The position numbers and the translations under genes were made by a program. The notes below the pieces were generated by a model that was not told the DNA's origin, did not search any database, and saw nothing but the letters and a program-made list of their open reading frames with translations. Shown here in pieces: positions 13,197-29,412 of a DNA stretch of 64,000 nt. Positions within the stretch are counted from its first letter, which is position 1, and the number at the start of each line of letters is the position of its first letter. The stretch comes from Blastopirellula sediminis (GTDB taxonomy: Bacteria; Planctomycetota; Planctomycetia; Pirellulales; Pirellulaceae): NCBI RefSeq assembly GCF_020966755.1, contig NZ_JAJKFT010000010.1:744001-808000 (forward strand), read 5' to 3'.

Positions 13197-13970
13197 ATGA
13201 TACGACTCCCGGAAGCCCGTGGCTCGCGCCTCGCACCTTTGACCGGCATGTCCGCCGAGGCGCTCCATCTATGGAGTATCCCGCTTCGAGCCGGCAAGTC
13301 GCAGGTCGCCCAGCTGCGCGCAATGCTATCGGCCGCGGAGCGTGAAAAAGCGGACGGCTTTCTGTTGGAAGCTCAGACCGAGCGCTACATCATCTGCCGC
13401 GGCGCTGTCCGCCAGATCCTGGCCGAGTACCTGCAATTGCCCGCGACTCAGCTCTCGCTGACGGCCGGAAAATACGGCAAGCCGCTCGTCGAACACCAAG
13501 ATTCGCTCTGGTTCAACGTCAGCCACTCCGGCGATCTGGCGGTGCTGGCCGTTTCAACCATCGGCGAAGTCGGCGTCGATATCGAACAGGTCCGCGAAAT
13601 TCGCGGCCTTCCCCGGATGATCGATCGCTGCCTGGCTCCGTGCGAACGCCCAGAAGTGCTCCGCTTGCCGTCAGCCGAGCAGAATCGTCAGTTCCTGCGG
13701 TACTGGACGCACAAAGAAGCGTATTTGAAGACCTTTGGGGTCGGAATTCGCCGTCCTCTGGAAAAGTTGGAAATCGACCTGGTTGCGCCTCCTGCACGAC
13801 GCGTGATCGACCATGGCGATCGTTCTCCCGAAGAAATGGGCGCTTCCATCACCGAATTCTGCCCGGCTGAGGGGTATGTGGGGGCGATTTCGGTCTCTGG
13901 CTCGATTCCGGACGAAATTGCCGCTCAGGCGTGGGTCGGTGGTCGCTTCCGGGCCCAACGTGTAGGATAA
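13197..13970 (+). CDS. 4'-phosphopantetheinyl transferase (Sfp type)
   Basis: This enzyme transfers the phosphopantetheine arm of CoA to a Ser of carrier proteins. The family signatures are visible: F-N-V-S-H-S (WFNVSHSGD), G-V-D-I-E (VGVDIEQV, Mg-binding Asp and Glu) and W-T-H-K-E-A-Y-L-K. At 257 residues from the ATG at 13197 it is of Sfp length; an ATG at 13248 just before ALHLW is an alternative, and neither has a strong ribosome site. It lies 31 bases before a free-standing ACP and about 460 bases before the PKS, so the natural reading is that it activates both carrier domains. Its C-terminal 60 residues are less conserved than the core. Confidence 0.92.
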   Translation: MIRLPEARGSRLAPLTGMSAEALHLWSIPLRAGKSQVAQLRAMLSAAEREKADGFLLEAQTERYIICRGAVRQILAEYLQLPATQLSLTAGKYGKPLVEHQDSLWFNVSHSGDLAVLAVSTIGEVGVDIEQVREIRGLPRMIDRCLAPCERPEVLRLPSAEQNRQFLRYWTHKEAYLKTFGVGIRRPLEKLEIDLVAPPARRVIDHGDRSPEEMGASITEFCPAEGYVGAISVSGSIPDEIAAQAWVGGRFRAQRVG

Positions 13971-14001
13971 ATCCATTACGTAACGACGTGAGAGGACCTA
14001 C

Positions 14002-14271
14002 ATGACAAGCGACAAATCGGCCGCTGGCGCTTCTGCCACGGCGGAAGAAATCCAAGAGTGGATGGTCGCCTATCTTGCCCGCGAGCTGGATACGGCGCCC
14101 CAGTCGATCGACGTAACGGCTCCGTTCGAATCGTTTGCGCTCGATTCGGCGGCGGCGATCGGTATGACCGGCGACCTGGAACAATGGCTCGGACGCCGCA
14201 TCGACCCGACCGTCGTCTACGACTATCCGACGATCGAAGAATTCTCGGAATACCTGGCCGATCGGCGATAA
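14002..14271 (+). CDS. Free-standing acyl carrier protein
   Basis: This 89-residue carrier protein has the four-helix ACP pattern (EEIQEWMVAYLARELD, then the Ser-bearing helix, then DPTVVYDYPTIEEFSEYLA). The pantetheine Ser is Ser49 in ALDSAAAIG. The residue after it is Ala rather than the usual Leu or Met, a departure from the DSL motif that is nevertheless seen in some PKS-associated carrier proteins. AGAGGA sits upstream at good spacing. Its position between a phosphopantetheinyl transferase and a PKS that already has its own ACP suggests it supplies a starter unit, accepts the product or delivers an amino-acid or acyl group. This is inference from gene order. Confidence 0.88.
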   Translation: MTSDKSAAGASATAEEIQEWMVAYLARELDTAPQSIDVTAPFESFALDSAAAIGMTGDLEQWLGRRIDPTVVYDYPTIEEFSEYLADRR

Positions 14272-14429
14272 ACGCCGCTGATGGGCACGGATGCAAGCGG
14301 CGCAGGTTAAAAGGCGCAATATCGCTACAATAATCGTCAAGGCTTGCGCCGCTCGCCAGTCCGATCCCCTTCCGGACGAGCCCCTACACGGCCGTCATTC
14401 CCAAGCCACGACGTAGATTGATAACCGCG

Positions 14430-17400
14430 ATGCATCTACCTCACTCGCCGATCGCCGTGGTGGGCGTCGGTTGTCGTTTCCCCGGCGCCGCCGATCCGGC
14501 CGCCTATTGGGAGCTCCTCGCCGGCGGCGTCGACGCGATTCGTCAGACGCCGGCCGATCGCTGGGACGTCGACGCGCTCTACAGCAGCGAGCCGGCCACA
14601 CCTGGCAAAACCAGCACCCGCTGGGGCGGCTTTCTGGACGACGTCGCCGACTTCGATCCCGCCTTCTTTGGGATCTCTGGCCGCGAAGCCGAAAAGATGG
14701 ATCCGCAGCAACGCCTGCTGTTGGAAGTAGCGTGGGAAGCGCTCGAAAACGCCGGCATCCCGGTCGATAGCCTCGCCGACTCGCCGACCGGCGTCTACGT
14801 TGGCATCAGCAACAGCGACTACGCCCGACTGATGTTCCGCGGGCTCGAATCTCTGAACGCCTACAGCGCGACCGGGACCAGCCTCTCGATCGCCGCCAAC
14901 CGACTGAGCTACGTCTTCAACTTCCGCGGCCCGAGCGTCGCGATCGACACCGCGTGCAGCTCTTCGCTGGTCGCGGTTCACCTGGCTTGCCAAAGTCTGC
15001 AGAGCGGCGAGTCGAATCTCGCCCTCGCCGGCGGCGTCAACATGATCCTGACGCCGGAAGGGACGATCACCTTCTCGCAAGCGCGGATGATGTCGCCTGA
15101 CGGACGCTGCAAGACGTTCGACGCCAAAGCGGACGGCTACGTCCGGGGCGAAGGATGCGGCATGGTCGTGCTGAAACGGTTGGAAGACGCCGAACGCGAC
15201 GGAGATCGCATCCTGGCCGTCGTCCGCGGTTCGGCCGTCAATCAAGACGGTCTCACCAACGGGCTGACTGCTCCCAATGGTCCGTCGCAGCAAGACGTCC
15301 TGCGCGCGGCGCTCGCCGATGCGCACCTCAATCCGCATGACGTCGAGTACATCGAAGCGCACGGTACCGGCACTTCGCTCGGCGATCCGATCGAAGTCCG
15401 TTCGCTGAAGAGCGTCCTGGCCGTCGATCGCCCTGCCGAAAAGCCGCTCCGGATCGCGTCGGTCAAAACGAACATTGGCCACTTGGAATCGGCCGCCGGC
15501 GTCGCTGGTCTGGTGAAGTGCATCCTCGCCCTCTCGCACGAGAAGATCCCGCCGCATCTGAACTTCAGCGAGCTGAACCCGTACATCGATCTCTCCGACG
15601 CGCCGATCGAAATCCCGCTTGCGCCGACCGATTGGAAATCGGAGCGCGGCCATCGGATCGCCGGCGTCAGCGCCTTCGGCTTTGGCGGCACCAACTGCCA
15701 TGTGATCGTCGGCGACTACGTCAACCAAAAGACGAAAGAAACCTACGCCAACTTCCAGCGCCCGCAGCATGTGGTCACGCTCTCGGCCGCCAGCGCAACC
15801 GGTTTGGCCGAAGTTGCGACCCACTATGCCGACCTGCTGGCGGAACATCCCGATCTCGATGTCGCCGACTTCGCCTATTCGGTCAACGTCGGACGCTCGA
15901 AACTGGAAACTCGCCAGGGCTTGATCGTCGATTCGCGCGAAGCGGCGATCACGCAGCTTCGCAAGATCGCCGGGACTGCGCCGAGCGAAGAGAGCGGCGC
16001 CAAACGTCGCAAGCTGAAGACCGCCTTCCTCTTCACCGGGCAAGGCTCGCAGTACTTCGGCATGAGCAAGACGCTGTACGAAACGCAGCCGATCTACCGT
16101 GCGACGCTCGATCGCTGCGCCGAGATCCTTGCGCAGTACGACGTGCCGCTGCTTGAGATCCTGTTCGGCGCCGACGCCGACGCGGTCAACCAAACCGCTT
16201 ACACGCAACCGGCCCTGTTCGCCGTCGAGTACTCGCTGTACGAACTCTGGAAGTCGTGGGGCGTCGAGCCCGACATGGTGATCGGGCACAGCGTCGGCGA
16301 ATATGTCGCCGCCTGCGCCGCCCGCGTCTTCTCGCTCGAAGATGGTCTGAAGCTGATCGCGCTTCGCGGCAAGCTGATGAACTCGCTTCCGGCTGGCGGC
16401 GGCATGGCCGCGATTTCGGCCGGGCCGTCGGTCGTCGATCCGCTGATCGCCGCCAACCCGACCAAGCTCTCGGTCGCCGCTTACAACAGCCCGCAGCAGA
16501 CGGTGATCTCAGGCGAAATGGCCGCGCTCGATGCGGCGATCGCCGAGTGCGAAAAGCAGGGAGTTCGCGCCACCCGCCTGACCGTCTCGCATGCGTTCCA
16601 CTCGCCGCTGATGGATCCGATTCTCGATGAATTCGAGAAAACGATTGGCCAGATCGAACTCCATCCGGCGTCGATTCCGCTCGCCGCAAACCTGACCGGA
16701 CAATGGGCCGGCGACGAAATCACCACGCCCTCTTACTGGCGCAACCATCTGCGCGAAGCGGTCCGCTTTGGCGACGGAATGGCGCTGCTGGGTAAGAAGG
16801 GCGCCAAGGTCTTTATCGAGGTCGGCCCGAATCCGATTCTAACCGGGCTCGGCCGCGCGACGCTTGATGGCAAAGATCTGAACTGGCTCTCGTCGATGCG
16901 CGCGAAGCGCGACGAGTGGCAAACGCTCCTCGGTTCGCTCGCCCAGCTGTTTGAACTCGGCGGCAAGATTGACTGGCACGGCTTTGAAGCAGGCTACGCG
17001 CGCACCAAGATCGAGTTGCCGACCTACCCATTCCAGCGCTCGCGCTTCTGGGCGCCCGACAGCGCCGGTCCTGCCGATAGCGGCGGCTACGTCAGCACGG
17101 CGGCGACGCCGGTCGTCGGCGGTCATCCGCTCCTCGGCGTACTTCATCCGACGGCGCTCGATGAGAAGCTGTACGAGTCGACACTCTCCGCTTCGCGCCC
17201 CAACTACCTCCGCGATCATCAACTGTTCGGGCAGCCGGTCTTTCCGGCGACCGGTTACATCGAAATCGCGCTCGCCGCTGGCCGCGAACATTTCGCCGCC
17301 ACCAACGTTGCGGTCGAAGGGCTGAACATCCATCAGCCGTTGGTCCTCGACGACGCGCTCCGCTCGGTGCAAACCTTGCTCACCCCCGGCGACTCGGTTT

Positions 17401-20400
17401 GCGACTTCCGTATTCTCAGCCGCGAAGCCTCCGGCGAGACCGACGCCGTCTGGAAGCTGCACGCCTCCGGCAAGGTCGCGCTGACCGACGCGGCGCCGGA
17501 AGAGCTGAAGCTGCAAGACGTCTACTTCAAGATGGAAGGGGAAATCGAAGTCGAGCCGTTCTACGCCGCGTGTCGCGCGAGCGGTCTCGATTACGGTCGC
17601 GCCTTCCGCGGCATCAAGAAGATGGGAACCGGCGGCGACGACGCGCTGGCCGAAGTCTCGCTCGCCGCACAGCAGAAGAGCGACGCGTCGCACTACGCGC
17701 TCCATCCGGCGCTGCTCGACGCTTGTTTGCAGACGGTCGGCGCCTTGGTCGCTGATCAAGTCAACGCCGACTCCACCTTCGTCCCGATCGGCGCCGCCGC
17801 GGTCCGCGTCTTCGCCCCGCATTCGCCGGCCCATGTGATTTGCCATAGCTGCATCACCGAGCGGAAGAGCGGTCGCTCGCCGCAAGTCGTCGCCGACGTC
17901 TTCCTCGCCAGCGAAGAAGGAGAAGAGCTCGCCGAAATCCGCGGCCTCCGTTTGATGCGGGTCTCGCGGCAAGATTTGCAGCAGCGGCTGCATCACCATG
18001 TCGACGGCTGGCTCTACGAAGTGATCTGGCGCGAAACGCCCCGGATCGGCTCGCCGCTGTCGGTCGACGAAACGCAAACGCCCGCGTGGCTGGTTTGGAT
18101 CGCAGACAAAAAGAGCCCGCTCGCCGCGTCGCTCCACAAAGAGCTGACCGATCGCAAGCAGCGCTGCGTAATTACATCGCCGGGCAAGAAGCTGAAAGTC
18201 ACCGCCGACGCCGCCGAACTCGCGACCGGCGATCCTGCTCAGTTCGATCAACTCCTCACCGAGTTGAAGCTTTCGGCCGCAGCTCCGCTCCGCGGCGTAA
18301 TCGTGTTGGCCAATGACGCCGCCGCGACCGACACGCAGGCCGTTCAAACGACGCTCCACCTGACGCAAGCGCTGCTGAAGCTCGACGATCAATCGCCGCA
18401 GTTGACCCTGGTGACGCAAGGAGCGCAGCAAGTTGCCGCCGATAGCGGCGTCGCCCAGCCTCCGGGAACAGCTCTGTGGGGACTGGGCCGCGTCATCGCC
18501 GCCGAAGCGCCGAAGCTCTCCTGCACGCGGATCGATCTCGATCCGGCTGGCGCCGAAAACGCCTCCCGCTTGTTCGGCGAACTATGGGTTCCCGACAAAG
18601 AAGTTGAAATCGCCCTCCGCGGCGACAAGCGTTATTCCTCACGGCTCGTTTCGGCCGCCGACGCCAAGCGCGGTCAGCTGGCGATTCCGTACGGACCGTA
18701 CAAGCTCGGCCTGCAAAAGTTCGGCCTGATCGATCAACTTACGTTGCGCGACCTGGCCGTCGCCGAGCCCGGCGAAACCGAAGTCGAAATTGCCGTCAGC
18801 GCCGCGGGCCTCAACTTCCGCGACGTGCTGCGCGCGCTTGGCATGCTGCAAGAGTACGAAAAAGAGATCGGTATTCTGAGCGAAGCGGACGTCACGTTCG
18901 GCTTTGAATGCTCCGGCGTCGTGACTCGCGTCGGCGGCAAGGTGAAGTCGTACCAGCCAGGGGACGCGGTGATCGCGCTGGCGACCGCCAGCATGGCGAG
19001 CCACCTGACGATCGACCAGAACTACGTCGCGCCTCGTCCGACCAAGATGTCGCACGAAGAAGCGGCGACGCTGCCGCTCGCCTATCTGACCGCCTATTAC
19101 GGCCTGGTCAAACTGGCGCAGCTGAAGAAGGGGGACCGCGTCCTGATTCACGCCGCAGCTGGCGGCGTTGGACAAGCGGCGGTCGCCATCGCCCAAGCGG
19201 CCGGCGCCGAAGTCTTCGCCACCGCCAGCCGCGGCAAGTGGGACTTCCTCCGCTCCCTCGGCGTCGAGCATATCTACGACTCGCGCACGACGAGCTTCGC
19301 CGACAAGATCGCCGCCGATACTGACGATCGCGGCGTCGACGTCGTCCTCAACAGCTTGAACCAGGACTTCATTCCGAAGAGCGTCGAAGTCTTGGCCGAG
19401 AAGGGGCGTTTCGTCGAGATCGGCAAGATCGGCGTCTGGACGAAGGAACAGTTCGCTGAAGTTCGCCCGAGCGCCAAATACTTCCCATTCGATCTGGGAC
19501 AGGAAGAGCGCAACGACGTTGGCCTGATCGCTCGCTTGTTGGATGAACTTGGCCCGCAGTTCAACTCCGGCGCGCTTCGTCCGCTGCCGATGGAAGTCTT
19601 CCCGGTCGAAAAGTCGGTCGAAGCGTTCCGTCACATGCAGCAGGCCAAGCATCGCGGCAAAGTTGTGATCGGCATGGCGCGCCCGCTAGGGGAAACATCG
19701 CTGGTCAGCGCAAGCGGAACCTACCTGATCACCGGCGGTCTCGGCGCACTTGGCCTGGAAGTCGCTTCGTGGCTCGTCAGTCGCGGGGCCAAGCATTTGG
19801 CGCTCGTTAGCCGCAGCGGCAAGCCGAACGAAGCGGCCGCCGAGCGGATCGCCGCCTGGCAGAGCGAAGGTGTCGCCGTCGACTGCGTCGCGCTTGACGT
19901 CGCCGACGCGAAGAGCGTCACCAGCGCCGTCGCTTTGCTGAACACTCAGAACCCACTGGTCGGCGTCATTCACGCGGCCGGCGTGCTCGACGACGCGACT
20001 CTGCCGCATCAATCGTGGGAGCGGTTTGAAAACGTCTTCTCGTCGAAGGTCGACGGGGCGTGGAACCTGCATACGGCGACCGCCGAACTACCGCTCGAGA
20101 TGTTCGTCACCTTCTCGTCGCTGGCGGCGGTGATCGGTTCGCCGGGTCAATCGAACTACGCGGCTGCCAACGCCTTCATGGATGGTTTGGCCACGTATCG
20201 CCGCAGCCTTGGCTTGGCCGGGCTCAGCATCAACTGGGGTCCCTGGTCAGGCGGCGGCATGGCGGCCAATCAAGATCATGCGAAATGGGCGAAGCTCGGC
20301 GTCGGCGTCATCTCGCCGCCAGAAGGTTTGTTCGCGCTGGAGCAAATCGTCAGCGATCGCCTTAGTACCAACGTCGGCGTCTTCCCGATCGACTGGAGCA

Positions 20401-22085
20401 AGTTCCTCAAGCAGTTCTCGCGCAACAAGCACCCACGACTCCTCGATCAACTCGCGACCCTCCATCGCCGCGAAGCGGTCGCCGCTGCAGGCGCCGTCGC
20501 CGGTGGATTGAAAGGTCAGCTCGCCGCCGCTGGCGAAGAGAAGCGTGCTCGCCTGGTCGCCGATTACGTCGCCGAAGCGGTCGGCAAAACGCTCGGCGTC
20601 GCCGCCGCGCAGCTCGACCGCAGCAAGCCGCTCGCCGACATGGGGCTCGACTCGTTGATGGGGATCGAGCTGAAGAACGGGCTCGAGTCGGAACTCGACA
20701 TCGAAATTCCGATGGAGAGCTTTTCGGCCGAAACGACCGTCAACAGTCTGGCCGGCGCCGTCCAAGCGGTCCTTGGCGTCGAAGGAGACGGCGCCACTGA
20801 TGCAGGTACCGGCGCAGCGCAAGCTCCACAGGCCAAAGCTCAGCAGAAGCGGTCGATCGACGAAATCGGTCCCGGCGACTACGACGTCCGCGAGTTTCCT
20901 GAGATTCGCGAGCTCGAAACGCGGCTCGAAACCTTCGCACGCATGGGGGTCGAGAATCCCTACTTCGACGTCCACGAGCGGGTCACCAAAGATACGACTG
21001 TGATCGCCGGTCGCGAGATGATCAACTTCTCGAGCTACAACTACATCGGCAGCAGCGGCGCCCCTGAGGTAAACGCGGCGGCCCAAGCGGCGATCGAACA
21101 GTTCGGCACCAGCGTCTCGGCCAGCCGCGTGGTGAGCGGCGAAAAGACGATCCACGGTCAGCTGGAGAAGGGGATCGCGAAGTTCCTGGGGGTTGAAGAT
21201 TCGGTCGTCTTCGTCGGTGGTCACTCGACCAACGAAACGACGATCGGTCACATGATGAACCCCGGCGACCTGATCCTACATGACGAACTGTCGCACAACA
21301 GCTTGATCCAAGGGTGCATCCTATCCGGCGCCCAGCGCCGCTCCTTCCGTCACAACGATTTCGAAGCGGTCGAGCGAATGCTGGCCGAATCGCGCGGCAA
21401 CTACCGCCGCGTCTTGATCGTGGTCGAAGGGGTTTACAGCATGGACGGCGACTACCCCGATCTGCCGAAGTTCATCGAACTGAAAGAAAAGTACAAAGCG
21501 ATGCTCTTCGTCGACGAGGCTCACTCGATCGGCACGATGGGCAAGACCGGCCGCGGCATCTGCGAACATTTTGACGTCGATCCGAATCGGGTCGACATGC
21601 TGATGGCGACCCTCAGCAAAACGTTCGGCAGCTGCGGCGGTTACATCGCCGGCCGCCATCAACTGGTGAAGTACCTGAAGTACACCGCGCCTGGCTTTGT
21701 CTTCAGCGTCGGCATTCCGCCTTCGAACGCCGCCGCGGCCCTCGCCGCGCTGCAGCGACTGGAATCGCATCCCGAGATCGTCGCCCAGTGCGCCGCCAAC
21801 TCCGAGCTGTTCCTCCGCCTGGCGAAAGAACGGAAGCTGAACACCGGTCTCGGCCGCAACACGCCGGTCGTGCCGGTCATCACCGGCAACTCGATGCGAG
21901 CGCTGAAGCTGTCGCGCAACTTGTACGCCCGCGGCATCAACGTGCAGCCGATTCTCTATCCGGCGGTCGAAGAAAAAGCGGCCCGGCTCCGCTTCTTCAT
22001 CACCTCGGAACACAAAGAGAAGCAAATCCGCGACACGGTCGACGCGACTGCCGAAGAGCTGGCGAAACTGGAAGCCCAAGCGTAA
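14430..22085 (+). CDS. Highly reducing type I PKS fused to alpha-oxoamine synthase
   Basis: The 2551-residue protein carries a complete reducing PKS module. KS (about 5-430) has active Cys176 in DTACSSS. AT (about 530-850) has Ser621 in GHSVGEY and HAFH at 721-724, the malonyl-type signature. DH (about 910-1190) has His930 in DHQLFGQPVFP and Asp1097. A structural region follows. ER (about 1425-1750) has the nucleotide loop GGVGQAA near 1578. KR (about 1760-1940) has TGGLGALG, LDD at 1853-1855 (B-type) and Tyr1910. ACP has Ser2075 in LGLDSLMG. A PLP alpha-oxoamine synthase (about 2150-2551) follows, with HDELSHNS, DEAHSIG and Lys2397 in LSKTFGS. There is no thioesterase, so release is expected by decarboxylative condensation with an amino acid, as for SxtA-type or serine palmitoyltransferase chemistry. 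ATG14430 is preferred to TTG14418. Confidence 0.95.
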   Translation: MHLPHSPIAVVGVGCRFPGAADPAAYWELLAGGVDAIRQTPADRWDVDALYSSEPATPGKTSTRWGGFLDDVADFDPAFFGISGREAEKMDPQQRLLLEVAWEALENAGIPVDSLADSPTGVYVGISNSDYARLMFRGLESLNAYSATGTSLSIAANRLSYVFNFRGPSVAIDTACSSSLVAVHLACQSLQSGESNLALAGGVNMILTPEGTITFSQARMMSPDGRCKTFDAKADGYVRGEGCGMVVLKRLEDAERDGDRILAVVRGSAVNQDGLTNGLTAPNGPSQQDVLRAALADAHLNPHDVEYIEAHGTGTSLGDPIEVRSLKSVLAVDRPAEKPLRIASVKTNIGHLESAAGVAGLVKCILALSHEKIPPHLNFSELNPYIDLSDAPIEIPLAPTDWKSERGHRIAGVSAFGFGGTNCHVIVGDYVNQKTKETYANFQRPQHVVTLSAASATGLAEVATHYADLLAEHPDLDVADFAYSVNVGRSKLETRQGLIVDSREAAITQLRKIAGTAPSEESGAKRRKLKTAFLFTGQGSQYFGMSKTLYETQPIYRATLDRCAEILAQYDVPLLEILFGADADAVNQTAYTQPALFAVEYSLYELWKSWGVEPDMVIGHSVGEYVAACAARVFSLEDGLKLIALRGKLMNSLPAGGGMAAISAGPSVVDPLIAANPTKLSVAAYNSPQQTVISGEMAALDAAIAECEKQGVRATRLTVSHAFHSPLMDPILDEFEKTIGQIELHPASIPLAANLTGQWAGDEITTPSYWRNHLREAVRFGDGMALLGKKGAKVFIEVGPNPILTGLGRATLDGKDLNWLSSMRAKRDEWQTLLGSLAQLFELGGKIDWHGFEAGYARTKIELPTYPFQRSRFWAPDSAGPADSGGYVSTAATPVVGGHPLLGVLHPTALDEKLYESTLSASRPNYLRDHQLFGQPVFPATGYIEIALAAGREHFAATNVAVEGLNIHQPLVLDDALRSVQTLLTPGDSVCDFRILSREASGETDAVWKLHASGKVALTDAAPEELKLQDVYFKMEGEIEVEPFYAACRASGLDYGRAFRGIKKMGTGGDDALAEVSLAAQQKSDASHYALHPALLDACLQTVGALVADQVNADSTFVPIGAAAVRVFAPHSPAHVICHSCITERKSGRSPQVVADVFLASEEGEELAEIRGLRLMRVSRQDLQQRLHHHVDGWLYEVIWRETPRIGSPLSVDETQTPAWLVWIADKKSPLAASLHKELTDRKQRCVITSPGKKLKVTADAAELATGDPAQFDQLLTELKLSAAAPLRGVIVLANDAAATDTQAVQTTLHLTQALLKLDDQSPQLTLVTQGAQQVAADSGVAQPPGTALWGLGRVIAAEAPKLSCTRIDLDPAGAENASRLFGELWVPDKEVEIALRGDKRYSSRLVSAADAKRGQLAIPYGPYKLGLQKFGLIDQLTLRDLAVAEPGETEVEIAVSAAGLNFRDVLRALGMLQEYEKEIGILSEADVTFGFECSGVVTRVGGKVKSYQPGDAVIALATASMASHLTIDQNYVAPRPTKMSHEEAATLPLAYLTAYYGLVKLAQLKKGDRVLIHAAAGGVGQAAVAIAQAAGAEVFATASRGKWDFLRSLGVEHIYDSRTTSFADKIAADTDDRGVDVVLNSLNQDFIPKSVEVLAEKGRFVEIGKIGVWTKEQFAEVRPSAKYFPFDLGQEERNDVGLIARLLDELGPQFNSGALRPLPMEVFPVEKSVEAFRHMQQAKHRGKVVIGMARPLGETSLVSASGTYLITGGLGALGLEVASWLVSRGAKHLALVSRSGKPNEAAAERIAAWQSEGVAVDCVALDVADAKSVTSAVALLNTQNPLVGVIHAAGVLDDATLPHQSWERFENVFSSKVDGAWNLHTATAELPLEMFVTFSSLAAVIGSPGQSNYAAANAFMDGLATYRRSLGLAGLSINWGPWSGGGMAANQDHAKWAKLGVGVISPPEGLFALEQIVSDRLSTNVGVFPIDWSKFLKQFSRNKHPRLLDQLATLHRREAVAAAGAVAGGLKGQLAAAGEEKRARLVADYVAEAVGKTLGVAAAQLDRSKPLADMGLDSLMGIELKNGLESELDIEIPMESFSAETTVNSLAGAVQAVLGVEGDGATDAGTGAAQAPQAKAQQKRSIDEIGPGDYDVREFPEIRELETRLETFARMGVENPYFDVHERVTKDTTVIAGREMINFSSYNYIGSSGAPEVNAAAQAAIEQFGTSVSASRVVSGEKTIHGQLEKGIAKFLGVEDSVVFVGGHSTNETTIGHMMNPGDLILHDELSHNSLIQGCILSGAQRRSFRHNDFEAVERMLAESRGNYRRVLIVVEGVYSMDGDYPDLPKFIELKEKYKAMLFVDEAHSIGTMGKTGRGICEHFDVDPNRVDMLMATLSKTFGSCGGYIAGRHQLVKYLKYTAPGFVFSVGIPPSNAAAALAALQRLESHPEIVAQCAANSELFLRLAKERKLNTGLGRNTPVVPVITGNSMRALKLSRNLYARGINVQPILYPAVEEKAARLRFFITSEHKEKQIRDTVDATAEELAKLEAQA

Positions 22086-22181: not shown

Positions 22182-24389
22182 CTACGCGGAAGGTAGCTCT
22201 TCGTTGATCAACTGTTTGTACTGCCCTTCAAACCACCGCGCGACGTCGCTTTTGTAGAACGTCGAAAAACGACTTTCGCTCGGGCCGCCGGGCAAGTTGG
22301 ACCAAGCCTCGCTGGTCGCCATATCGGCGACGAAGTGATAACTCGGCGCGAAGGTCGACGACCGTTTCGCCGTTTGCAGGACGTGCCCCTGGAAGATCGT
22401 CGCGAAGTTCCCCGGCATCGGGTAGGGCCGACTTTCAAAACCAAGCAGTCGCCCGACGCTGATGCCGCCGAAGAAGCGATCGGTGAAATGGAAGTTGTTC
22501 ACTTCGGACCACGGCTTCTCCACTTCCAGCTTCAGCTTCTCCGCCGCTGCGCGGATCAGCTCTCCTTTGTCTCGTCCCTTCCACCAGAGCGACTCCTCCT
22601 TTTTCAAGATCCGATCGACCGCGGCGATCACCATGCTCGAAAAGCCGACCCGCGATGCGACGTACAACACGCGGCGACGTCCGAGTCCTTCGGCCTGGCC
22701 GAAGATTTCTAGCAGGGTGTTGCGATAGAGCCGCTGGAACAGGACCGCCTCGTGGCTGTCGGGCGAATAGTCGAGGCTCCAATTCTCCAGCCGCCGAACG
22801 ATCGACTTGTCGGCGACGTGCGGCAGCAAATAAGGCAGCAAGTCCCGCGCTTGCAGACTGACCAGGTCGTACTGCAGCGCCTGCATCTCTTCGACCGTCA
22901 CTTCGTCGGCGTAGGACAACTGCTCGACGATGCGGCGTTTGCGATAGTCGGGGAGCGTTTGACTGGTGACCCGCACGCCGTCCACTTCCGGCTGCTCTTC
23001 GTTGGCCGTCGCAACGAAGCCGCACTCTGGATTGTAGATGCTCGGCAGGTACTCGGCGGATAGGAAGCCGTTCCAATGATTCGCTTCGTCCCACGCGGCG
23101 AGCGGCGCTAGTCCTGTCGCGCCGCTACGACGTACCGGAAAGCGGCCGTTCCCTTGCATGCCGATGTTACCTTCGGCGTCGGCAAAAACCCAGCAGAGCG
23201 TCGGCTGCGGACATTGCTCGGCCACTTCCATCGCCGACACGACGTCAGACGACGCGATCACGTCGAGCCACGAACCAATCGCAGTGCCGCTGCCGGGCGT
23301 CGTGCCGCTCCACGCGAGCGAGAACTGATAGCCCGGCGTCAGCGGATCGGCGTCAAGCGTTCCTTGCGGATTCTCAAGCACGATCATCGTTTCGGCGTCG
23401 GCCCCTTTGCGGCCGAGAATTTCCTCGCGAACTTCAAAGTCCATCCAGGTATGCGCGCCGCGGCGATATTGCCACTGACCCGTCGGCGACACGCGACAAT
23501 CTTCGATGAAGATGTCGATCGTATCCCCTTTCATGTAGGTGACGCCCCAGGCGAGGTTCGACGTGCGGCCGACGGCGACCAGCGGACAGCCAGGGAGCGT
23601 CGCCCCCATCACGTAGTCGTCTCCCCAGTTCAGAACCGCTTCGTACCAGATCGCCGGCAAGCGATTGATTTCGAGATGGGGATCGGAGCAGAGAAGCGCT
23701 CCGCCCGAGGCGGTTCGCGACGGCGCGACTGCCCACGCGTTGCTGCCGGCCAAACGCGGCAAGTCGGCGAGCACTTCCAGCGCCTCGTCCGACATCCGCG
23801 GCAGCGAAGGAACATGCCGGATCAAATCAAAGTCGACATGCTCCAGCCGGCCTTCAAACATTTCGCGGAGCGCCGCTTCGCTGGCGCCGGACTGGATCAA
23901 TTCGACGACGATCCGTTCGTTCTCGAGCTGACTGACGGCGAGCCCGCCGAAGCTGAGAAGATTGCCGATCAGCAGCACGCTGACCGGGTCCCACGGCTCC
24001 GACGCAAAGCCGGTCGCCCACATCGGCCACGATTGCCCGACCGCCATGGCGCCGTCGTTGACCCCGGCGGCGTAGTGAACGATTTGCTCGTGGATGTGAG
24101 GCTGCAGCAGCGTCACTTCGCGGTGATGATTGCGATGCAAACCGATCCGGCGAAAAAATCGGTCGGTTTCGCGCAATTCTTCCTTGTCGGCGATCAATTC
24201 CGACGCCCGACCGGCCGAAACCGCTCGCGCAAACATGATTTGCGTGATGCGGTCGGTCGCATGCATATAGCCGAGGCCATAGAGCGCATCGTCGCGAGAT
24301 TCGGCGAAAACATGAGGAACGCCAGCTTCATCGCGAGCAATCCGTAACTTTCGCTGGCAGTTCGGCGTCGAAAGGGGAGTTAATGTCAT
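22182..24389 (-). CDS. Penicillin acylase family Ntn-hydrolase
   Basis: The 735-residue protein belongs to peptidase family S45 (penicillin/AHL/cephalosporin acylases). These are made as one chain and self-cleave in front of a catalytic Ser. The cleavage motif is clear: GSNAWAV, with the nucleophile Ser216, then S-D-P-H-L-E, the usual pattern. N-terminal features such as DEAGVPHVFAES and ALYGLGYMHATDR are typical. It should hydrolyse an amide between an acyl chain and an amine. Most members are periplasmic, but the N-terminus here (MTLTPLSTPNC) has no signal peptide, so it may be cytosolic or start elsewhere. It converges on the PKS; whether it acts on the PKS product is unproven. The nearest upstream gene, the sugar permease, is divergent. 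Confidence 0.9.
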   Translation of the reverse strand: MTLTPLSTPNCQRKLRIARDEAGVPHVFAESRDDALYGLGYMHATDRITQIMFARAVSAGRASELIADKEELRETDRFFRRIGLHRNHHREVTLLQPHIHEQIVHYAAGVNDGAMAVGQSWPMWATGFASEPWDPVSVLLIGNLLSFGGLAVSQLENERIVVELIQSGASEAALREMFEGRLEHVDFDLIRHVPSLPRMSDEALEVLADLPRLAGSNAWAVAPSRTASGGALLCSDPHLEINRLPAIWYEAVLNWGDDYVMGATLPGCPLVAVGRTSNLAWGVTYMKGDTIDIFIEDCRVSPTGQWQYRRGAHTWMDFEVREEILGRKGADAETMIVLENPQGTLDADPLTPGYQFSLAWSGTTPGSGTAIGSWLDVIASSDVVSAMEVAEQCPQPTLCWVFADAEGNIGMQGNGRFPVRRSGATGLAPLAAWDEANHWNGFLSAEYLPSIYNPECGFVATANEEQPEVDGVRVTSQTLPDYRKRRIVEQLSYADEVTVEEMQALQYDLVSLQARDLLPYLLPHVADKSIVRRLENWSLDYSPDSHEAVLFQRLYRNTLLEIFGQAEGLGRRRVLYVASRVGFSSMVIAAVDRILKKEESLWWKGRDKGELIRAAAEKLKLEVEKPWSEVNNFHFTDRFFGGISVGRLLGFESRPYPMPGNFATIFQGHVLQTAKRSSTFAPSYHFVADMATSEAWSNLPGGPSESRFSTFYKSDVARWFEGQYKQLINEELPSA

Positions 24390-24569: not shown

Positions 24570-25502
24570 GTGAGTTCGACGCGAAATCGTATTGCAGGCT
24601 ACGCATTCGCCAGCCCCTGGCTGGTTGGGTTGGTGCTGTTATACCTGTTTCCGTTCGCGGCGTCTTTGTATTGGAGCTTTTGTCGCTACGACCTGATCAA
24701 TCCGCCCCAGTGGATTGGGGGAGAAAACTACGCCCGAATCGCGGAGGAAATCGCCACCGGAACCGGCTTCGGCCAGGCTCTCTGGAATACCGCGTATTAC
24801 GCCGCCGTTAGCGTCCCCCTCTCGATACTGCTCGGAATCACGCTGGCGGTGCCGCTATCGCTGCCGGTCCGCGGACAAGCGATTTTTCGGACCCTCTTTT
24901 TTCTCCCGTCGGTGATCCCAGTCGTCGCGGCCAGCATTTTGTGGATGTGGCTGCTTGATCCGACCGACGGGATCGTCAACTACGGGCTCTCCAGCGTCGG
25001 CCTCGGCCAACCGAAGTGGCTCGAATCGCCGGGGAACGTCTTCGCCGCGTTTTGGCAAACCGGCAGCTTCGCCCCTGGTTCGAAAGACGCGCTCGTCTTG
25101 ATGAGCCTGTGGGGGGTCGGCAACTTTATGGTGATCTACCTGGCGGCGCTCGGCGACGTGCCGAAGTCGCTCTACGAAGCGGCGCAGCTCGACGGCGCTG
25201 GTCCCTTGCGCCGCTTCGTGCATATCACGCTCCCGATGCTCACCCCGATTATCTTTTTCAATTTGGTGATGGGGCTGATTCAATCGGTGCAGGCCTTCAC
25301 GCAGATCTACATCGTCAGCGAGGGACGGGGCTCGCCGGCCGGATCGACGATGATGATCAGCTTGCAGCTTTTCCTGAGCGCGTTTCAGCATCTTGATATG
25401 GGATACGCGTCGGCGATCGCGTGGCTGTTGTTCGTTCTCTTGCTCGCGGCGACGTTGTTGCTCTTCCGCACATCGCATCGCTGGGTCTACTACGGAGGAT
25501 GA
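24570..25502 (+). CDS. Carbohydrate ABC transporter permease (MalF type)
   Basis: This 310-residue inner-membrane protein has six predicted membrane segments, beginning with AFASPWLVGLVLLYLFPFAASLY, and the cytosolic EAA loop (YEAAQLDGAGPLRRFVHITLPMLTP) that contacts the ATPase. It matches the UgpA/MalF-like permeases of the CUT1 sugar importer family. The start is GTG at 24570 with GAGG just upstream. Its stop overlaps the beginning of the binding-protein gene region. With the binding protein and second permease it forms a three-gene operon; no ATP-binding subunit is encoded, so a shared MsmX/UgpC-type ATPase from elsewhere is expected. Confidence 0.92.
   Translation: MSSTRNRIAGYAFASPWLVGLVLLYLFPFAASLYWSFCRYDLINPPQWIGGENYARIAEEIATGTGFGQALWNTAYYAAVSVPLSILLGITLAVPLSLPVRGQAIFRTLFFLPSVIPVVAASILWMWLLDPTDGIVNYGLSSVGLGQPKWLESPGNVFAAFWQTGSFAPGSKDALVLMSLWGVGNFMVIYLAALGDVPKSLYEAAQLDGAGPLRRFVHITLPMLTPIIFFNLVMGLIQSVQAFTQIYIVSEGRGSPAGSTMMISLQLFLSAFQHLDMGYASAIAWLLFVLLLAATLLLFRTSHRWVYYGG
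25494..25498 (+). promoter_or_regulatory. Ribosome-binding site setting the binding-protein start
   Basis: GGAGG ends six bases before ATG25505. It lies inside the last two Gly codons of the upstream permease. An alternative ATG at 25499, overlapping the permease stop, directly abuts this site and is too close to use it. Confidence 0.7.
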
Positions 25503-25504
25503 CG

Positions 25505-26863
25505 ATGAGCCGCAGCACTTTGCAAATCGCCGCGATCGTTCTGTTACTGGGCGTCGTCGCCTACGCGGCATCGCTCGGCGACAACCAAGAAGCATCAACG
25601 CCGCAGGGTCGGAGCGAAGTCCTCTTCTGGCATTTCTGGGGAGGCGCCGATCGGGCGACGGTCGAAGAGATCGTCCGCCGCTTTAACGAGTCGCAGGACG
25701 AACACTACGTTCGCGCAATTGCGATGCCGGGGAACAACCTTGACCTGAAGTTTTTTCTCGCCGTCGCCGGGGGCGATCCGCCCGACCTGCTGAATATTGA
25801 CGATCCAGTCATCGCCGACTGGGGTGCACGCGGCGCAATCCTGCCGCTCGACGCCTTCGCGCCCGCAGAGGAAGTGCGACAAGCGGAGAAGTGGCTCTTT
25901 CCCGCCGCACGGCGTCTGGCGACTTACGATGGTCGCTTGTATGCGTTACCCAATGGTCTCGATATACGAGCGCTCTACTATCATCAGACGCTGCTCGATC
26001 AGTACGGGCTGAAACCGCCGGAGACGTTGGCCGATCTCGACCAGATCGAAACGACAATCGCGCCGCCGGGACAAAAGTCGTACCAGCGGCATGGCTATCT
26101 GCCTGACTCGCGACGCTTGTGGCCGTGGGGATATGTCTTCGGCGGACAGTTTTACAACAAGGAAACGCACCAGGTGACGGCCGATGACCCGCAGATCGTC
26201 GCTTCCCTTGAGTGGATGGTTGGATTCCGCCAGCGTTATGGCCCGGCCGAGATTGCCGCGTTTCGTTCCGGCGATCAATCGCTCCCCGGCAAAGCCTTTC
26301 CGCTGCTGGCTGGTCGCTATGCGGTGATGATGGATGGCCAGTGGCGCGTCCGCGACATCCGCGCGTTTCAAGCGGCGCAAAGAGAACGAGGCGAGCCGAT
26401 CACGCAGTTCGGCGTTTGCCCGTTGCCGCCTCCGCCGGGAGGAAAAACGCGAGCCGGCTGGGTGAACGGCAACAACTTTGTCGTCCCCCGCGGCGCGAAG
26501 AACGCAGCCGGAGCGTGGGCCTTTATGAAGTTCTGGAGCGGCCTGGGACACGAAACGGAAGCGGCCCAGACCTGCGTTGCCGGCGGCTGGATTCCAGTCT
26601 CGGGGCAGGTCGTGCAACAGCCGCAGTTCCAAGCTTTCCTGAAAGAAGAGCCGATGTTCGCTCAGTTCGTCGACTTGGCCGGCAGCGAAAACCAATACCC
26701 AATTCCCGTCGTTCCGGCCGGCGCCTTTTTCGATAGCGAGATCAAGAACGTCGCCGAGCGAGCGATGCTACGAACCGAAGAGCCCGACTGCGCGGCGATG
26801 CTCAAAGAAGCGACGCGCGTGATTCAACGCCAGATTGACGCCGCGCGGGAGTCGGTCGAATGA
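25505..26863 (+). CDS. Extracellular sugar-binding protein of ABC importer
   Basis: The 452-residue protein is a family 1 solute-binding protein. It has an N-terminal hydrophobic segment (LQIAAIVLLLGVVAYAA) acting as signal peptide or anchor, then EVLFWHFWGG, the usual opening of this class. Further motifs are the GGDPPDLLNIDD segment, LDAFAP, and YALPNGLDIRALYYHQTLLDQYGL. No lipobox Cys is visible, so it is either periplasmic or held by its N-terminal helix. It lies between two permeases with overlaps at both ends (ATGA with the downstream gene), a tight operon. The sugar is unknown. The order permease-binding protein-permease is less usual than binding protein first. Confidence 0.9.
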   Translation: MSRSTLQIAAIVLLLGVVAYAASLGDNQEASTPQGRSEVLFWHFWGGADRATVEEIVRRFNESQDEHYVRAIAMPGNNLDLKFFLAVAGGDPPDLLNIDDPVIADWGARGAILPLDAFAPAEEVRQAEKWLFPAARRLATYDGRLYALPNGLDIRALYYHQTLLDQYGLKPPETLADLDQIETTIAPPGQKSYQRHGYLPDSRRLWPWGYVFGGQFYNKETHQVTADDPQIVASLEWMVGFRQRYGPAEIAAFRSGDQSLPGKAFPLLAGRYAVMMDGQWRVRDIRAFQAAQRERGEPITQFGVCPLPPPPGGKTRAGWVNGNNFVVPRGAKNAAGAWAFMKFWSGLGHETEAAQTCVAGGWIPVSGQVVQQPQFQAFLKEEPMFAQFVDLAGSENQYPIPVVPAGAFFDSEIKNVAERAMLRTEEPDCAAMLKEATRVIQRQIDAARESVE

Positions 26864-27684
26864 AGTTGAACCTGTTCGAAAAAGTGCTGGCCTATTTGGC
26901 TCTGCTGTTCGCGGCGATCCTGCTCGCTGGCCCGCTGTTGATCATGGCCTTCTCGTCGCTGAAAACGCCGGCCGAGATTCAAACCGATCCGCACGCAATT
27001 CTGCCGCAGTCATGGCGGTGGAAAAACTACCAAGACGCGGTCAGCGCGATGCCGTTCTTCCTGTACCTGCGAAACACGCTGTTGATCTGCATCGGCTCGG
27101 TGATCGGCACAGTGATTTCGTGCTCGATGACGGCGTACGCGTTTTCAAAACTGAATTGGCCGGGGCGAAATCTATTGTTCGGCGTGCTGATCGGCACAAT
27201 GCTCCTGCCGTGGCATGTGACGATGATTCCCCGATTCTTGTTGCTGCGGGAAGTCGGACTTTACAACACGCTCGGCGCGCTGATCATTCCCACATTCCTG
27301 GGAGATGCGTTTTCGATCTTTTTGCTACGGCAGTTCTTTCGCACCATTCCGGAAGAACTGAGCGAAGCGGCTCGCATCGACGGGCTGAGCGAATGGGGGA
27401 TCTTCTGGCGAATCGTGTTGCCGCTGTCGAAACCGGCGATCGCGACCGTCGCGCTGTTCCAGTTTATCGCCGCATGGAACGACTTCAGCGGCCCGTTGTT
27501 GCTCTTGAGCGACAAGCGGAACTTCCCGCTGGCGTACGGGCTAGAGCAGTTCGTCAGCTCGTATAGCGATCAAACCCACTTGCTGTTGGCGGCGGCGACT
27601 TTGTTCACGCTACCGATTGTGGTTCTGTTCTTCCTGACGCAGCGAACCTTCTTGAAAGGGATCGCAACGACAGGACTGAAGTAG
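26860..27684 (+). CDS. Carbohydrate ABC transporter permease (MalG type)
   Basis: This 274-residue inner-membrane protein is the second permease of the importer. It has six predicted membrane segments starting with VLAYLALLFAAILLAGPLLIM, the SLKTPAEI segment typical of MalG/UgpE-type permeases, and the EAA loop EELSEAARIDGLSEWGIFWR. The ATG overlaps the binding-protein stop (ATGA), indicating translational coupling. A large inverted repeat follows 11 bases after the stop and may terminate the operon. Confidence 0.93.
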   Translation: MKLNLFEKVLAYLALLFAAILLAGPLLIMAFSSLKTPAEIQTDPHAILPQSWRWKNYQDAVSAMPFFLYLRNTLLICIGSVIGTVISCSMTAYAFSKLNWPGRNLLFGVLIGTMLLPWHVTMIPRFLLLREVGLYNTLGALIIPTFLGDAFSIFLLRQFFRTIPEELSEAARIDGLSEWGIFWRIVLPLSKPAIATVALFQFIAAWNDFSGPLLLLSDKRNFPLAYGLEQFVSSYSDQTHLLLAAATLFTLPIVVLFFLTQRTFLKGIATTGLK

Positions 27685-27694
27685 CCAGAATCCT

Positions 27695-27800
27695 TGGTGC
27701 CATGCTCTTGCGGCGATAGCCGGATGAGCATGTCTTCAATGCGTGTCACCAGGGCAAAGACATGCTCATCCGGCGAAGACGCCGCAAGAGCATGGCACCA
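27695..27800. repeat. 106-bp near-perfect inverted repeat
   Basis: Two nested stems are read directly. The outer arms of 21 bases, 27695-27715 and 27780-27800, are perfect complements (TGGTGCCATGCTC... against ...GAGCATGGCACCA). The inner arms of 18 bases, 27719-27736 and 27757-27774, are also perfect (GCCGGATGAGCATGTCTT). They are separated by a small asymmetric bulge (3 and 5 bases) and enclose a 20-base centre. It fills the space between two convergent genes. It could be a bidirectional terminator, a structured RNA or a miniature inverted-repeat element; no target-site duplication is obvious. Confidence 0.85.
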
Positions 27801-27820
27801 TTAGAAACGGGGACTACGAG

Positions 27821-28951
27821 CTACTTTATCTCGCGTCCCTGCTCGTCCATATTGTTCTTCAGATCATCCACGATCACCCCACGAACGTCGCCGGGGTCGT
27901 CGTACTGCCAGACTTTGACCGACGCGAACTTGATCGACGCCGTTTTCCACGGCGCGGGGCCGGCCCAATCGGGGAGCCAAATCCCTAGGTTCAACTGCGC
28001 CGCCATCGCCGGAACGAAGCGATGATTCTCGGCAATCTTTTTGCCGTCGAGATAGTGAACCGCGTAATCGCCGGTATAGACGGCGTAGCGATCGGGACCG
28101 AGACGCTTGAGCGGATTGCCGAGATAGTCGTCAAACGGAATCGACTTCTCCTGGATCCAGTAATAGCCATCCTGCTCGGCGACCATCGCATCGGTGACGC
28201 TCGGGAGTTCCTTCAGTTTCGTGCGCCACTCGGTGACATACGTGTGGTAGTCGCCGTCGATCACGTGCGAAACGTCCCACAACAGCGGCTCATGCCGACT
28301 CTGACAAAACGTGTTGTACATCGCCTTGGAGAAGTCGCCCCCTTTGCCGAACTCAGGGAAGTCGAGCTCCGACCAATATTCGTTCGCGCCCAGGCCGTAC
28401 GCTTTCATGTGCGGGTTATACATCGGCTTGTCGGCCACGAACTGCTCGACCGGCTTGTCGCTGACGTGAACCCAGCGATAGCCGTAGGTCCACATCGCCG
28501 GAATCGCGCCGCTTGGCTCGCGCGGATTCTCGGGACCGCCGTCATACGGTTTCGCCTCGCCCACCTTAGCGACGATTTCAATCCGTCCCGAGGCGAAAAA
28601 CGGCTTCGAGACGATCACGCCGCCAACGCGATCTTTCCGTCCCCACATCCCGACGACGTCGCCGTCGTACTGATCGCCATGGCCAGTGCAGACCAGGACG
28701 TTTTTCGTTTCGCCATGAACGTCGTCCGGCGCCACCGACACGTTCTCCGGCACGACCCCATGATTGCCGCCGCCCCATTTCTTTCGCAGCACATACCACT
28801 TTTGCGGGTCGATCTGCCCCGACGACCAGTCTTCCGTAAAGACGAGTCGAGCCTCTTTCGGCGGGGCCGGTACGCTCTCGGGCAAGTCGGCGGCCAGCGA
28901 CCAGGTCGCAGCGCAGCAAGAGAATACGAGAACCGGCAACAGACGGCGCAT
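27821..28951 (-). CDS. Secreted GH16-like glycoside hydrolase
   Basis: The 376-residue product has a signal peptide (LLPVLVFSCCAATWSLA, cleavage near AADLP) and a jelly-roll-type glycosidase sequence. The catalytic signature E-x-D-x-x-E is at Glu195-Asp197-Glu200 (SELDFPEFG), as in GH16 laminarinases, agarases and carrageenases. The opening LVFTEDWSSGQIDPQKWYV matches the usual N-terminal strand of GH16, and the C-terminal region WKTASIKFASVKVWQYD matches its final strand. Aromatic residues around the active site would shape the glycan subsite. Likely extracellular or periplasmic polysaccharide degradation; the substrate cannot be read from sequence alone. The ABC importer next door might take up its products, but the genes are convergent. 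Confidence 0.78.
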   Translation of the reverse strand: MRRLLPVLVFSCCAATWSLAADLPESVPAPPKEARLVFTEDWSSGQIDPQKWYVLRKKWGGGNHGVVPENVSVAPDDVHGETKNVLVCTGHGDQYDGDVVGMWGRKDRVGGVIVSKPFFASGRIEIVAKVGEAKPYDGGPENPREPSGAIPAMWTYGYRWVHVSDKPVEQFVADKPMYNPHMKAYGLGANEYWSELDFPEFGKGGDFSKAMYNTFCQSRHEPLLWDVSHVIDGDYHTYVTEWRTKLKELPSVTDAMVAEQDGYYWIQEKSIPFDDYLGNPLKRLGPDRYAVYTGDYAVHYLDGKKIAENHRFVPAMAAQLNLGIWLPDWAGPAPWKTASIKFASVKVWQYDDPGDVRGVIVDDLKNNMDEQGREIK

Positions 28952-29067
28952 GACGAGGACTTTCGCACAGAGAAGGAAGCGATGAGCGGCTTACCTTGCT
29001 ATGATAGTCCGCAGGGGACAGGTTACTCCCAAACTAGAAAAACTTCCTGCGGCCGGGCGCATCGACG

Positions 29068-29286
29068 ATGAAAGAAGACTTCAGCGGCTTTTGCAACGCC
29101 GGACCCGAGAACGCCCAACGAGCGATCGAAGAAGCGCATCAGGCGGTGCTCGAAGAGCTGCAAATCGCGCTGGAAGAAGCGACCGACGACGCCGAACGGG
29201 CCGACATCGAACAGGCGATCGCCGATGCGGTGGCCGAGAAGGAACGAGTCTTGAAGCAGTTGCTGGGACCGAAGAACTGCACGTAA
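29068..29286 (+). CDS. Small acidic helical protein, unknown
   Basis: This 72-residue protein is not a family I recognise. It is predicted to be almost entirely helical, with heptad-like spacing and strong acidic character (AIEEAHQAVLEELQIALEEA, then DIEQAIADAVAEKERVLKQLL). A Cys lies near each end (FCNAG, KNCT). It starts at ATG29068 about 130 bases upstream of eutB on the same strand. Position suggests it may be co-expressed with the ethanolamine genes, but there is no further evidence. It could be a small dimeric scaffold or regulator. Confidence 0.5.
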   Translation: MKEDFSGFCNAGPENAQRAIEEAHQAVLEELQIALEEATDDAERADIEQAIADAVAEKERVLKQLLGPKNCT

Positions 29287-29412
29287 CGCAGCCGGTGAGA
29301 CTGCGAAAACCGGCAAATTAATTTTGAAAACTTTGTCACTTGTTTCGCAAGTTCGCTTTCGATCAACTGGAATCGATCCGCGAATGCTTGAGCCTCTTCT
29401 CTTCGCCAGAAC

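Follow-up and report, generated by a model that had tools for sequence, protein, structure and literature searches.

We describe a three-gene set of Blastopirellula sediminis that centres on a 2551-residue polyketide synthase (PKS) fused at its C terminus to an alpha-oxoamine synthase (AOS). From the domain layout, conserved residues and kinship of this protein we read it as a probable sphingoid-base synthase, and we put the likelihood of that reading at roughly two in three. The genes lie in a 64,000-nucleotide stretch of the 7.05 Mb genome (contig NZ_JAJKFT010000010.1, positions 744001-808000), referred to here as the window; labels beginning with G and L are our own working labels for genomes and loci.

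In the proposed route, a phosphopantetheinyl transferase (PPTase) would arm two acyl carrier proteins (ACPs), one free and one within the PKS, and the single reducing module would build or extend a saturated acyl chain from malonyl units. In the C-terminal AOS, the carbanion of an amino acid bound to pyridoxal phosphate (PLP), most likely L-serine, would attack the acyl-ACP thioester with loss of CO2. The chain would be released as a 3-keto-sphinganine-like 2-amino-3-ketone, the first step of sphingolipid-like lipids, and some short-chain dehydrogenase/reductase (SDR) would reduce the ketone later. We infer that the module works iteratively and reduces fully at every cycle, that the AOS uses serine, that the small ACP carries a starter, and that an SDR reduces the ketone. 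Serine is preferred because the window AOS falls in a clade of PKS-adjacent AOS enzymes, and one such PKS+AOS system has a serine-specific enzyme according to PMC12134224. The genes and domains are as follows (residue ranges are Pfam limits).

13197..13970, forward strand: Sfp/HetI-type 4'-phosphopantetheinyl transferase (PPTase), 257 aa (PF01648, E 5.8e-16; PF22624)
14002..14271, forward strand: small ACP, 89 aa (PF00550, E 2.7e-14), read as a starter-loading ACP without an acyl-AMP ligase
14430..22085, forward strand: PKS-AOS fusion, 2551 aa, ATG at 14430, KS-AT-DH-ER-KR-ACP-AOS
14445..15719, forward strand: ketosynthase (KS), residues 6-379, with C176, H311 and H351 (Pfam, KS tree)
16026..16934, forward strand: acyltransferase (AT), malonyl type, residues 533-835, with GHSVGE and HAFH, the latter taken by us to mark the malonyl type
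17124..17981, forward strand: dehydratase (DH), residues 899-1184, with H930 and D1097
18720..19679, forward strand, limits approximate: enoylreductase (ER), pieces within residues 1448-1747, by family match only (ADH_N, ADH_zinc_N, ADH_zinc_N_2)
19716..20249, forward strand: ketoreductase (KR), B-type, residues 1763-1940, with an LDD motif that we take to mark the B-type
20562..20762, forward strand: C-terminal ACP of the PKS, residues 2045-2111, with S2075
20844..22082, forward strand: AOS domain, Aminotran_1_2 at residues 2196-2538, PLP lysine K2397 at 21618-21620 (residues mapped onto PDB 3a2b; trees)

Pfam matches and coordinates bear out the gene set described in a first-pass annotation of this DNA, namely a PPTase, a free ACP, and a 2551-residue KS-AT-DH-ER-KR-ACP-AOS protein. 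The annotation had also claimed that a thioesterase is lacking, and indeed none of the three proteins has a Pfam match to a thioesterase family, and the next gene downstream encodes a penicillin amidase homologue. We aligned the window PKS-AOS with eight other PKS-AOS proteins of the same clade and found the catalytic residues to be identical across all nine: KS C176/H311/H351, AT S621, DH H930/D1097, KR K1873/S1897/Y1910/N1914, ACP S2075, and AOS H2289/D2362/H2365/K2397/R2521. The sole varying site examined was the aspartate of the KR LDD motif, which is E in L043. The five AOS residues, checked as the PLP lysine, the PLP-stacking His, the Asp and His of D-x-A-H, and the substrate-binding Arg, are those of the AOS superfamily and align with PDB 3a2b. 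Pairwise Nei-Gojobori dN/dS against G001 and G003 was 0.06-0.13, both for each of the three genes and for the AOS part taken by itself. Against G045, a more distant relative, it was 0.17-0.20 (PPTase left out there). All three genes are under purifying selection, and the gene set is real, selected, and conserved. Conserved catalytic residues (for ER, a family match) and low dN/dS agree with an intact reducing module and an intact AOS.

In quick trees, the window AOS grouped with the AOS of PKS+AOS pairs, with support of 99 and 100 against canonical serine palmitoyltransferase (SPT), KBL, BioF, and other references (all trees here are quick or FastTree trees). The comparison with AONS, KBL, ALAS, and SPT put forward at first pass likewise set the window AOS apart from canonical SPT, KBL, BioF, and ALAS. 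The clade that includes rows of the Rkp, Wcb, and Sga types holds 15 rows with support of 100, its internal branching being tentative, and the window AOS is 47-54% identical to PKS-adjacent AOS in Pseudomonas, S. meliloti, Caballeronia, and Paraburkholderia records. It fell below the cut-offs of the NCBIfam models 2am3keto_CoA (247.8 of 493 bits) and ALAS (249.8 of 338.55 bits), and among solved chains its scores were 230 bits with an AONS/KBL and 224 bits with human SPTLC2.

The S. meliloti locus L083, whose genes we take to be RkpA, RkpG, and RkpH, encodes in this order a reducing PKS, an AOS belonging to the same clade, and an SDR. A monomodular PKS with DH, ER, and KR, as seen in the window, is also a feature of the Rkp, Wcb, and Sga systems; however, the Rkp and wcb capsule loci encode separate proteins in polysaccharide-export surroundings, whereas the window has one fused gene. 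An SDR and surface-polysaccharide genes nearby would also be expected of the Rkp/Wcb/Sga type, and none such was seen among the window neighbours scanned. In Pseudomonas fluorescens MYb115, PfSgaA/PfSgaB/PfSgaC comprise a monomodular iterative PKS and a serine-specific SPT that make long-chain sphinganines (PMC12134224, 2025). The same paper reports that SgaB joins acyl-CoA to L-serine almost exclusively, that labelled serine is incorporated in sphinganines in vivo, and that production in an sgaA mutant was regained only with complete sgaAB. The Sga system thus pairs a PKS-supplied chain with an SPT-like AOS, as proposed for the window, but as two separate proteins and with an SDR in the cluster.

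It is important to point out that some observations weigh against a sphingoid-base synthase. The window AOS scored far below cut-off with the canonical bacterial SPT models NF047599, NF047600, and NF047603 (263.2/500, 294.7/640, and 213.3/670 bits), and its best NCBIfam model was bioF (354.4 of 426.45 bits), below cut-off as well but above the SPT scores. No keto-reductase gene was found at the locus, and searches of the genome returned general SDRs: 10 with the S. meliloti SDR as query (best 35%) and 9 with that of Cylindrospermum (best 37%). A serine after D-x-A-H is common to the window AOS, 3a2b, SPTLC2, and LCB2a; the same serine is present in a PigH-like enzyme and absent in a Parabacteroides SPT-like row, making it a weak hint of serine use. 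In addition, SgaA/SgaB are assigned to the clade only indirectly, through the gene neighbourhood of a Pseudomonas plasmid pair that resembles them. The first-pass proposal of a PKS+AOS route to a sphingoid base stands in part: the intact module and AOS, the lack of a thioesterase, and the kinship to PKS-adjacent AOS favour it, but the concept had already been published for two proteins.

The PKS half appears to be home-grown, with the KS of Pirellulales PKS kin and an origin separate from the RkpA/Sga-like and Planktothrix PKSs. The KS rows of nine Pirellulales PKS-AOS proteins formed one clade (support 99) adjoining the PKS of G010, which has no AOS (91). In approximately unbiased (AU) tests, with KS groups named after the first tree had been seen, placing these KS rows in one clade with Planktothrix was rejected (p-AU 5.6e-5), as was one clade with RkpA/Sga-like rows (p-AU 9.8e-5). 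The Sga-similar Pseudomonas plasmid pair (L079) has its KS in another clade and a DH-ER gap of ~610 aa versus ~260 in the window. Plasmid p3 of Planktothrix agardhii (L080, WP_042158693.1) also encodes KS-AT-DH-ER-KR-ACP-AOS in one protein, of 2532 aa; its AOS is 51% and its PKS 42% identical to the window's, and glycosyltransferases lie near it. The fused PKS-AOS looks to have been assembled separately from its two-protein counterpart. Because the nearest related PKS by KS, that of G010 (L256), ends in an ACP and that of G056 (L258) in a thioesterase, the AOS may have been either added or exchanged for a thioesterase. Such an exchange was considered as the specific origin and is not claimed, as it is indistinguishable from a simple gain. 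Three related PKSs were included in an ACP comparison, and the C-terminal ACP of the window protein clusters with that of each except G010; it stands apart from the ACPs of proteins in which a fatty acyl-AMP ligase (FAAL) and an ACP precede the AOS (FAAL-ACP-AOS). This kinship would therefore place the fusion join between ACP and AOS.

These FAAL-ACP-AOS proteins, ~1150 aa in length, are the usual AOS form in Pirellulales and a candidate order-wide route to sphingoid-like lipids. They carry an N-terminal ligase where the window protein has PKS domains, so that their chain would be ligase-activated rather than PKS-built, and their internal ACP belongs to another group than the window's. At E<=1e-100, 85 of 98 related genomes hold an AOS, and in seven (G000-G003, G012, G022, G045) it lies in a frame of >2500 aa, the PKS-AOS; G012 has two copies, one cut by a contig end. 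We fetched 73 of the other 78 genomes with AOS (not G023, G025, G068, G091, and G095), and in 72 at least one AOS frame contained a FAAL, the exception being G035, with an ACP only. No FAAL-AOS of the main group was found in the seven PKS-AOS genomes at the same threshold; six of them carry one from a separate, tight clade. The B. sediminis genome has four AOS-family domains (E<=0.001): the window AOS, two in FAAL-ACP-AOS proteins, and one above the bioF cut-off. One FAAL-ACP-AOS gene lies at 8584-11958 of L005, reverse strand (FAAL/AOS matches). The other, at 8621-11950 of L006, reverse strand, holds the third AOS of the genome, whose nearest solved structure is the Sphingobacterium SPT (282.7 bits to 3a2b) and which appears more canonical than the window AOS. 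With two further enzymes of this type, the PKS-AOS is therefore not the only candidate route to such lipids in this genome.

By identity, the nearest AOS domains outside the PKS-AOS group are those of FAAL-ACP-AOS proteins (up to 67%), and free trees nested the window AOS inside the FAAL-AOS clade. This hinted at a swap of loader, from FAAL to PKS, within that clade. However, when FAAL-AOS was kept as one clade without the window AOS, the resulting tree outscored the recovered free tree by 6.86 log units (p-AU 0.64). We do not claim the swap because the held-together tree fits at least as well. Holding the window AOS with Planktothrix and G204 was weakly rejected (p-AU 0.033), and holding it with Rkp/Sga-like rows was not (p-AU 0.59).

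The small ACP bears on where the chain begins. Among NCBIfam models, it best matches the stretch of Pks13 that covers the N-terminal ACP, and it is 94-96% identical among congeners, with dN/dS of 0.06-0.08. We fetched four related PKS loci out of 26 matches outside the PKS-AOS genomes and saw no AOS in them. In all four, a FAAL and an ACP immediately precede the KS; three loci encode them as a protein of their own, and the remaining one as part of the PKS. The small ACP sits in this FAAL-ACP loading position and, in a tree built from a short alignment, clusters with these ACPs (branch values 0.94 and 0.81). We read it as a putative loading ACP that stayed behind when the ligase was lost. Its kinship and its place among the genes suggest that it would load a starter, and part of the chain may therefore be delivered ready-made. 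The first-pass phrase "one-protein route" is too simple in view of this ACP.

It is possible, although we lean away from it, that the PKS-AOS extends a preformed starter on the small ACP for a few cycles only, the starter being loaded by the ligase part of a FAAL-ACP-AOS protein. Such extension is compatible with a sphingoid-base synthase and alters only the origin of the chain. Besides the kinship and conservation of the small ACP, it agrees with the finding that the only two FAAL matches in the genome (E<=1e-15) are both in FAAL-ACP-AOS proteins, one of which belongs to the tight clade of the PKS-AOS genomes. On the other hand, the locus has no FAAL gene, each FAAL in the genome already has its own ACP, and the tight clade may be merely divergent FAAL-AOS, as it is joined by a protein of G037, which has no PKS-AOS match.

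A broader and rather doubtful extrapolation is that sphingoid-base synthases are widespread in Pirellulales and that their AOS can draw on interchangeable acyl sources: in most cases a ligase arm, but in Blastopirellula and some relatives a complete reducing PKS that gained an AOS for release. The PKS starter would arrive via the loading ACP left orphaned, which the ligase of the partner FAAL-ACP-AOS would charge in trans, and extended long-chain sphingoid bases would result. To our knowledge, Planctomycetota sphingolipids are known only from gene surveys. If the extrapolation is right, reducing PKSs were coupled to SPT-like enzymes on more than one occasion, and Pirellulales as a whole should contain sphingoid lipids; our search turned up gene-level hints only for this order. 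One such hint comes from PMC11334938, which mentions Spt-like proteins in 138 Planctomycetota metagenome-assembled genomes (MAGs).

Alternatively, the AOS of the fusion might take glycine or alanine, and the resulting 1-deoxy-type aminoketone would then go into a secondary metabolite and not into a sphingoid lipid of the membrane. The bioF score of 354.4 bits, the best of any NCBIfam model, fits this, and no recognised sphingolipid gene was seen among the neighbours scanned. In Streptomyces griseoviridis the product associated with a carrier-linked AOS is prodiginine. Carrier-protein-linked AOS domains of that species appear in PMC3870968 Table 2. We consider this unlikely, as the window AOS clade is apart from BioF, KBL, ALAS, and PigH-like rows, and SgaB prefers serine (PMC12134224). 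Less probable still is that the lipid anchors or carries a surface polysaccharide, in the manner of the rkp/wcb capsule loci, and is not a free membrane lipid or signal. PKS+AOS pairs do adjoin polysaccharide export, capsule, or lipoteichoic acid (LTA)-synthase-like genes in four plasmid records (L079, L082, L083, L089), and PMC3908369 ties rkp/wcb to polysaccharide biosynthesis and export. However, of 10 window neighbours scanned (9440-33964), 9 had a family match, none of surface-polysaccharide type, and 1 was matchless; moreover, flanks vary among PKS-AOS loci, G022 having the tRNA-modification gene too and G045 and G012 none of the window's flanking clusters. That the AOS is a non-catalytic relic, with the chain leaving by hydrolysis or transfer to another enzyme, is scarcely credible given the conserved catalytic residues and an AOS-only dN/dS of 0.06-0.09 against two congeners, and nothing was found in its favour.

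A literature search of limited depth turned up no recognised report of this fused protein. Among the closest accounts are other arrangements: the Caulobacter-type system (PMC9386255) likewise has a dedicated ACP but consists of separate proteins, with an acyl-CoA synthetase, a canonical SPT and no PKS, and a B. marina protein of the A-CP-AOS type, A3ZWL3, is found in Table 2 of PMC3870968. The swf genes of sponge symbionts have the same PKS layout (PMC3908369) and were set aside as a match because the release domains described there differ. What is new here is the fused form in Pirellulales, its separate PKS origin, the loading-ACP reading of the small ACP, and the presence of an AOS for release at the end of a PKS whose relatives terminate in an ACP or a thioesterase. 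Blastopirellula marina DSM 3645, a described strain, carries the gene set and suits study of how an AOS takes a chain from a PKS carrier.

Two trees placed eukaryotic LCB2 as sister to the bacterial AOS clade, with unstarred support of 89 and 86; two alternative placements were not rejected (p-AU 0.22 each). At residue 2203 of the window protein, a tyrosine is common to eukaryotic LCB2 (human SPTLC2, plant LCB2a), the bacterial AOS clade, and the third AOS of the genome, whereas 3a2b, KBL, BioF, and ALAS have asparagine. The sisterhood is a lead on a possible origin of eukaryotic SPT.

Other AOS architectures were also seen. Among the best 80 of at least 571 relatives, classed by script and several cut by contig ends, 66 were FAAL, 8 PKS, and 6 other. 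The PKS class comprised five planctomycete rows, at least three of them on the same contigs as G002, G022, and G012, and three from Deltaproteobacteria/Myxococcales MAGs. Two of these three MAG proteins were scanned (L200 868-7932 and L218 4367-11239) and are ordered KS-AT-ACP-KR-DH-AOS, with an AOS ~60% identical to the window's. A phylum draw of 294 genomes gave 12 with AOS at E<=1e-110, and G204, which belongs to another family, encodes both a KS-AT-DH-ER-KR-ACP-AOS protein and a FAAL-KS-AT-AOS protein. In Cylindrospermum sp. NIES-4074 (L226 7647-12256), a FAAL-ACP protein, an AOS with 58% identity to that of the window, and an SDR stand in a row that looks like a compact sphingoid-base operon.

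For the PPTase, the top NCBIfam model was HetI, at 152.6 of 370 bits, below cut-off. It is 79-90% identical in three congeners and 42-46% in G022, G045, and L152; no match was found at the fetched G012 and L153 loci, and the whole genome has three PF01648 matches. Downstream of the gene set lie the following.

22182-24389, reverse strand: penicillin amidase homologue, convergent with the PKS-AOS gene (family match)
24570-32862, forward strand: transport-system genes, EutB (ethanolamine ammonia-lyase), and an amino-acid permease (family matches)

The penicillin amidase was discounted as a PKS-AOS partner, being convergent and of a family that, among fetched stretches, is present in those of G001-G003 and not of G022, G045, or G012. 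Promoter-like sites numbered 2 versus 1.3 expected, and terminator-like sites 4 versus 10.1. Repeats, counted with no chance control, looked like short similarities between coding stretches.

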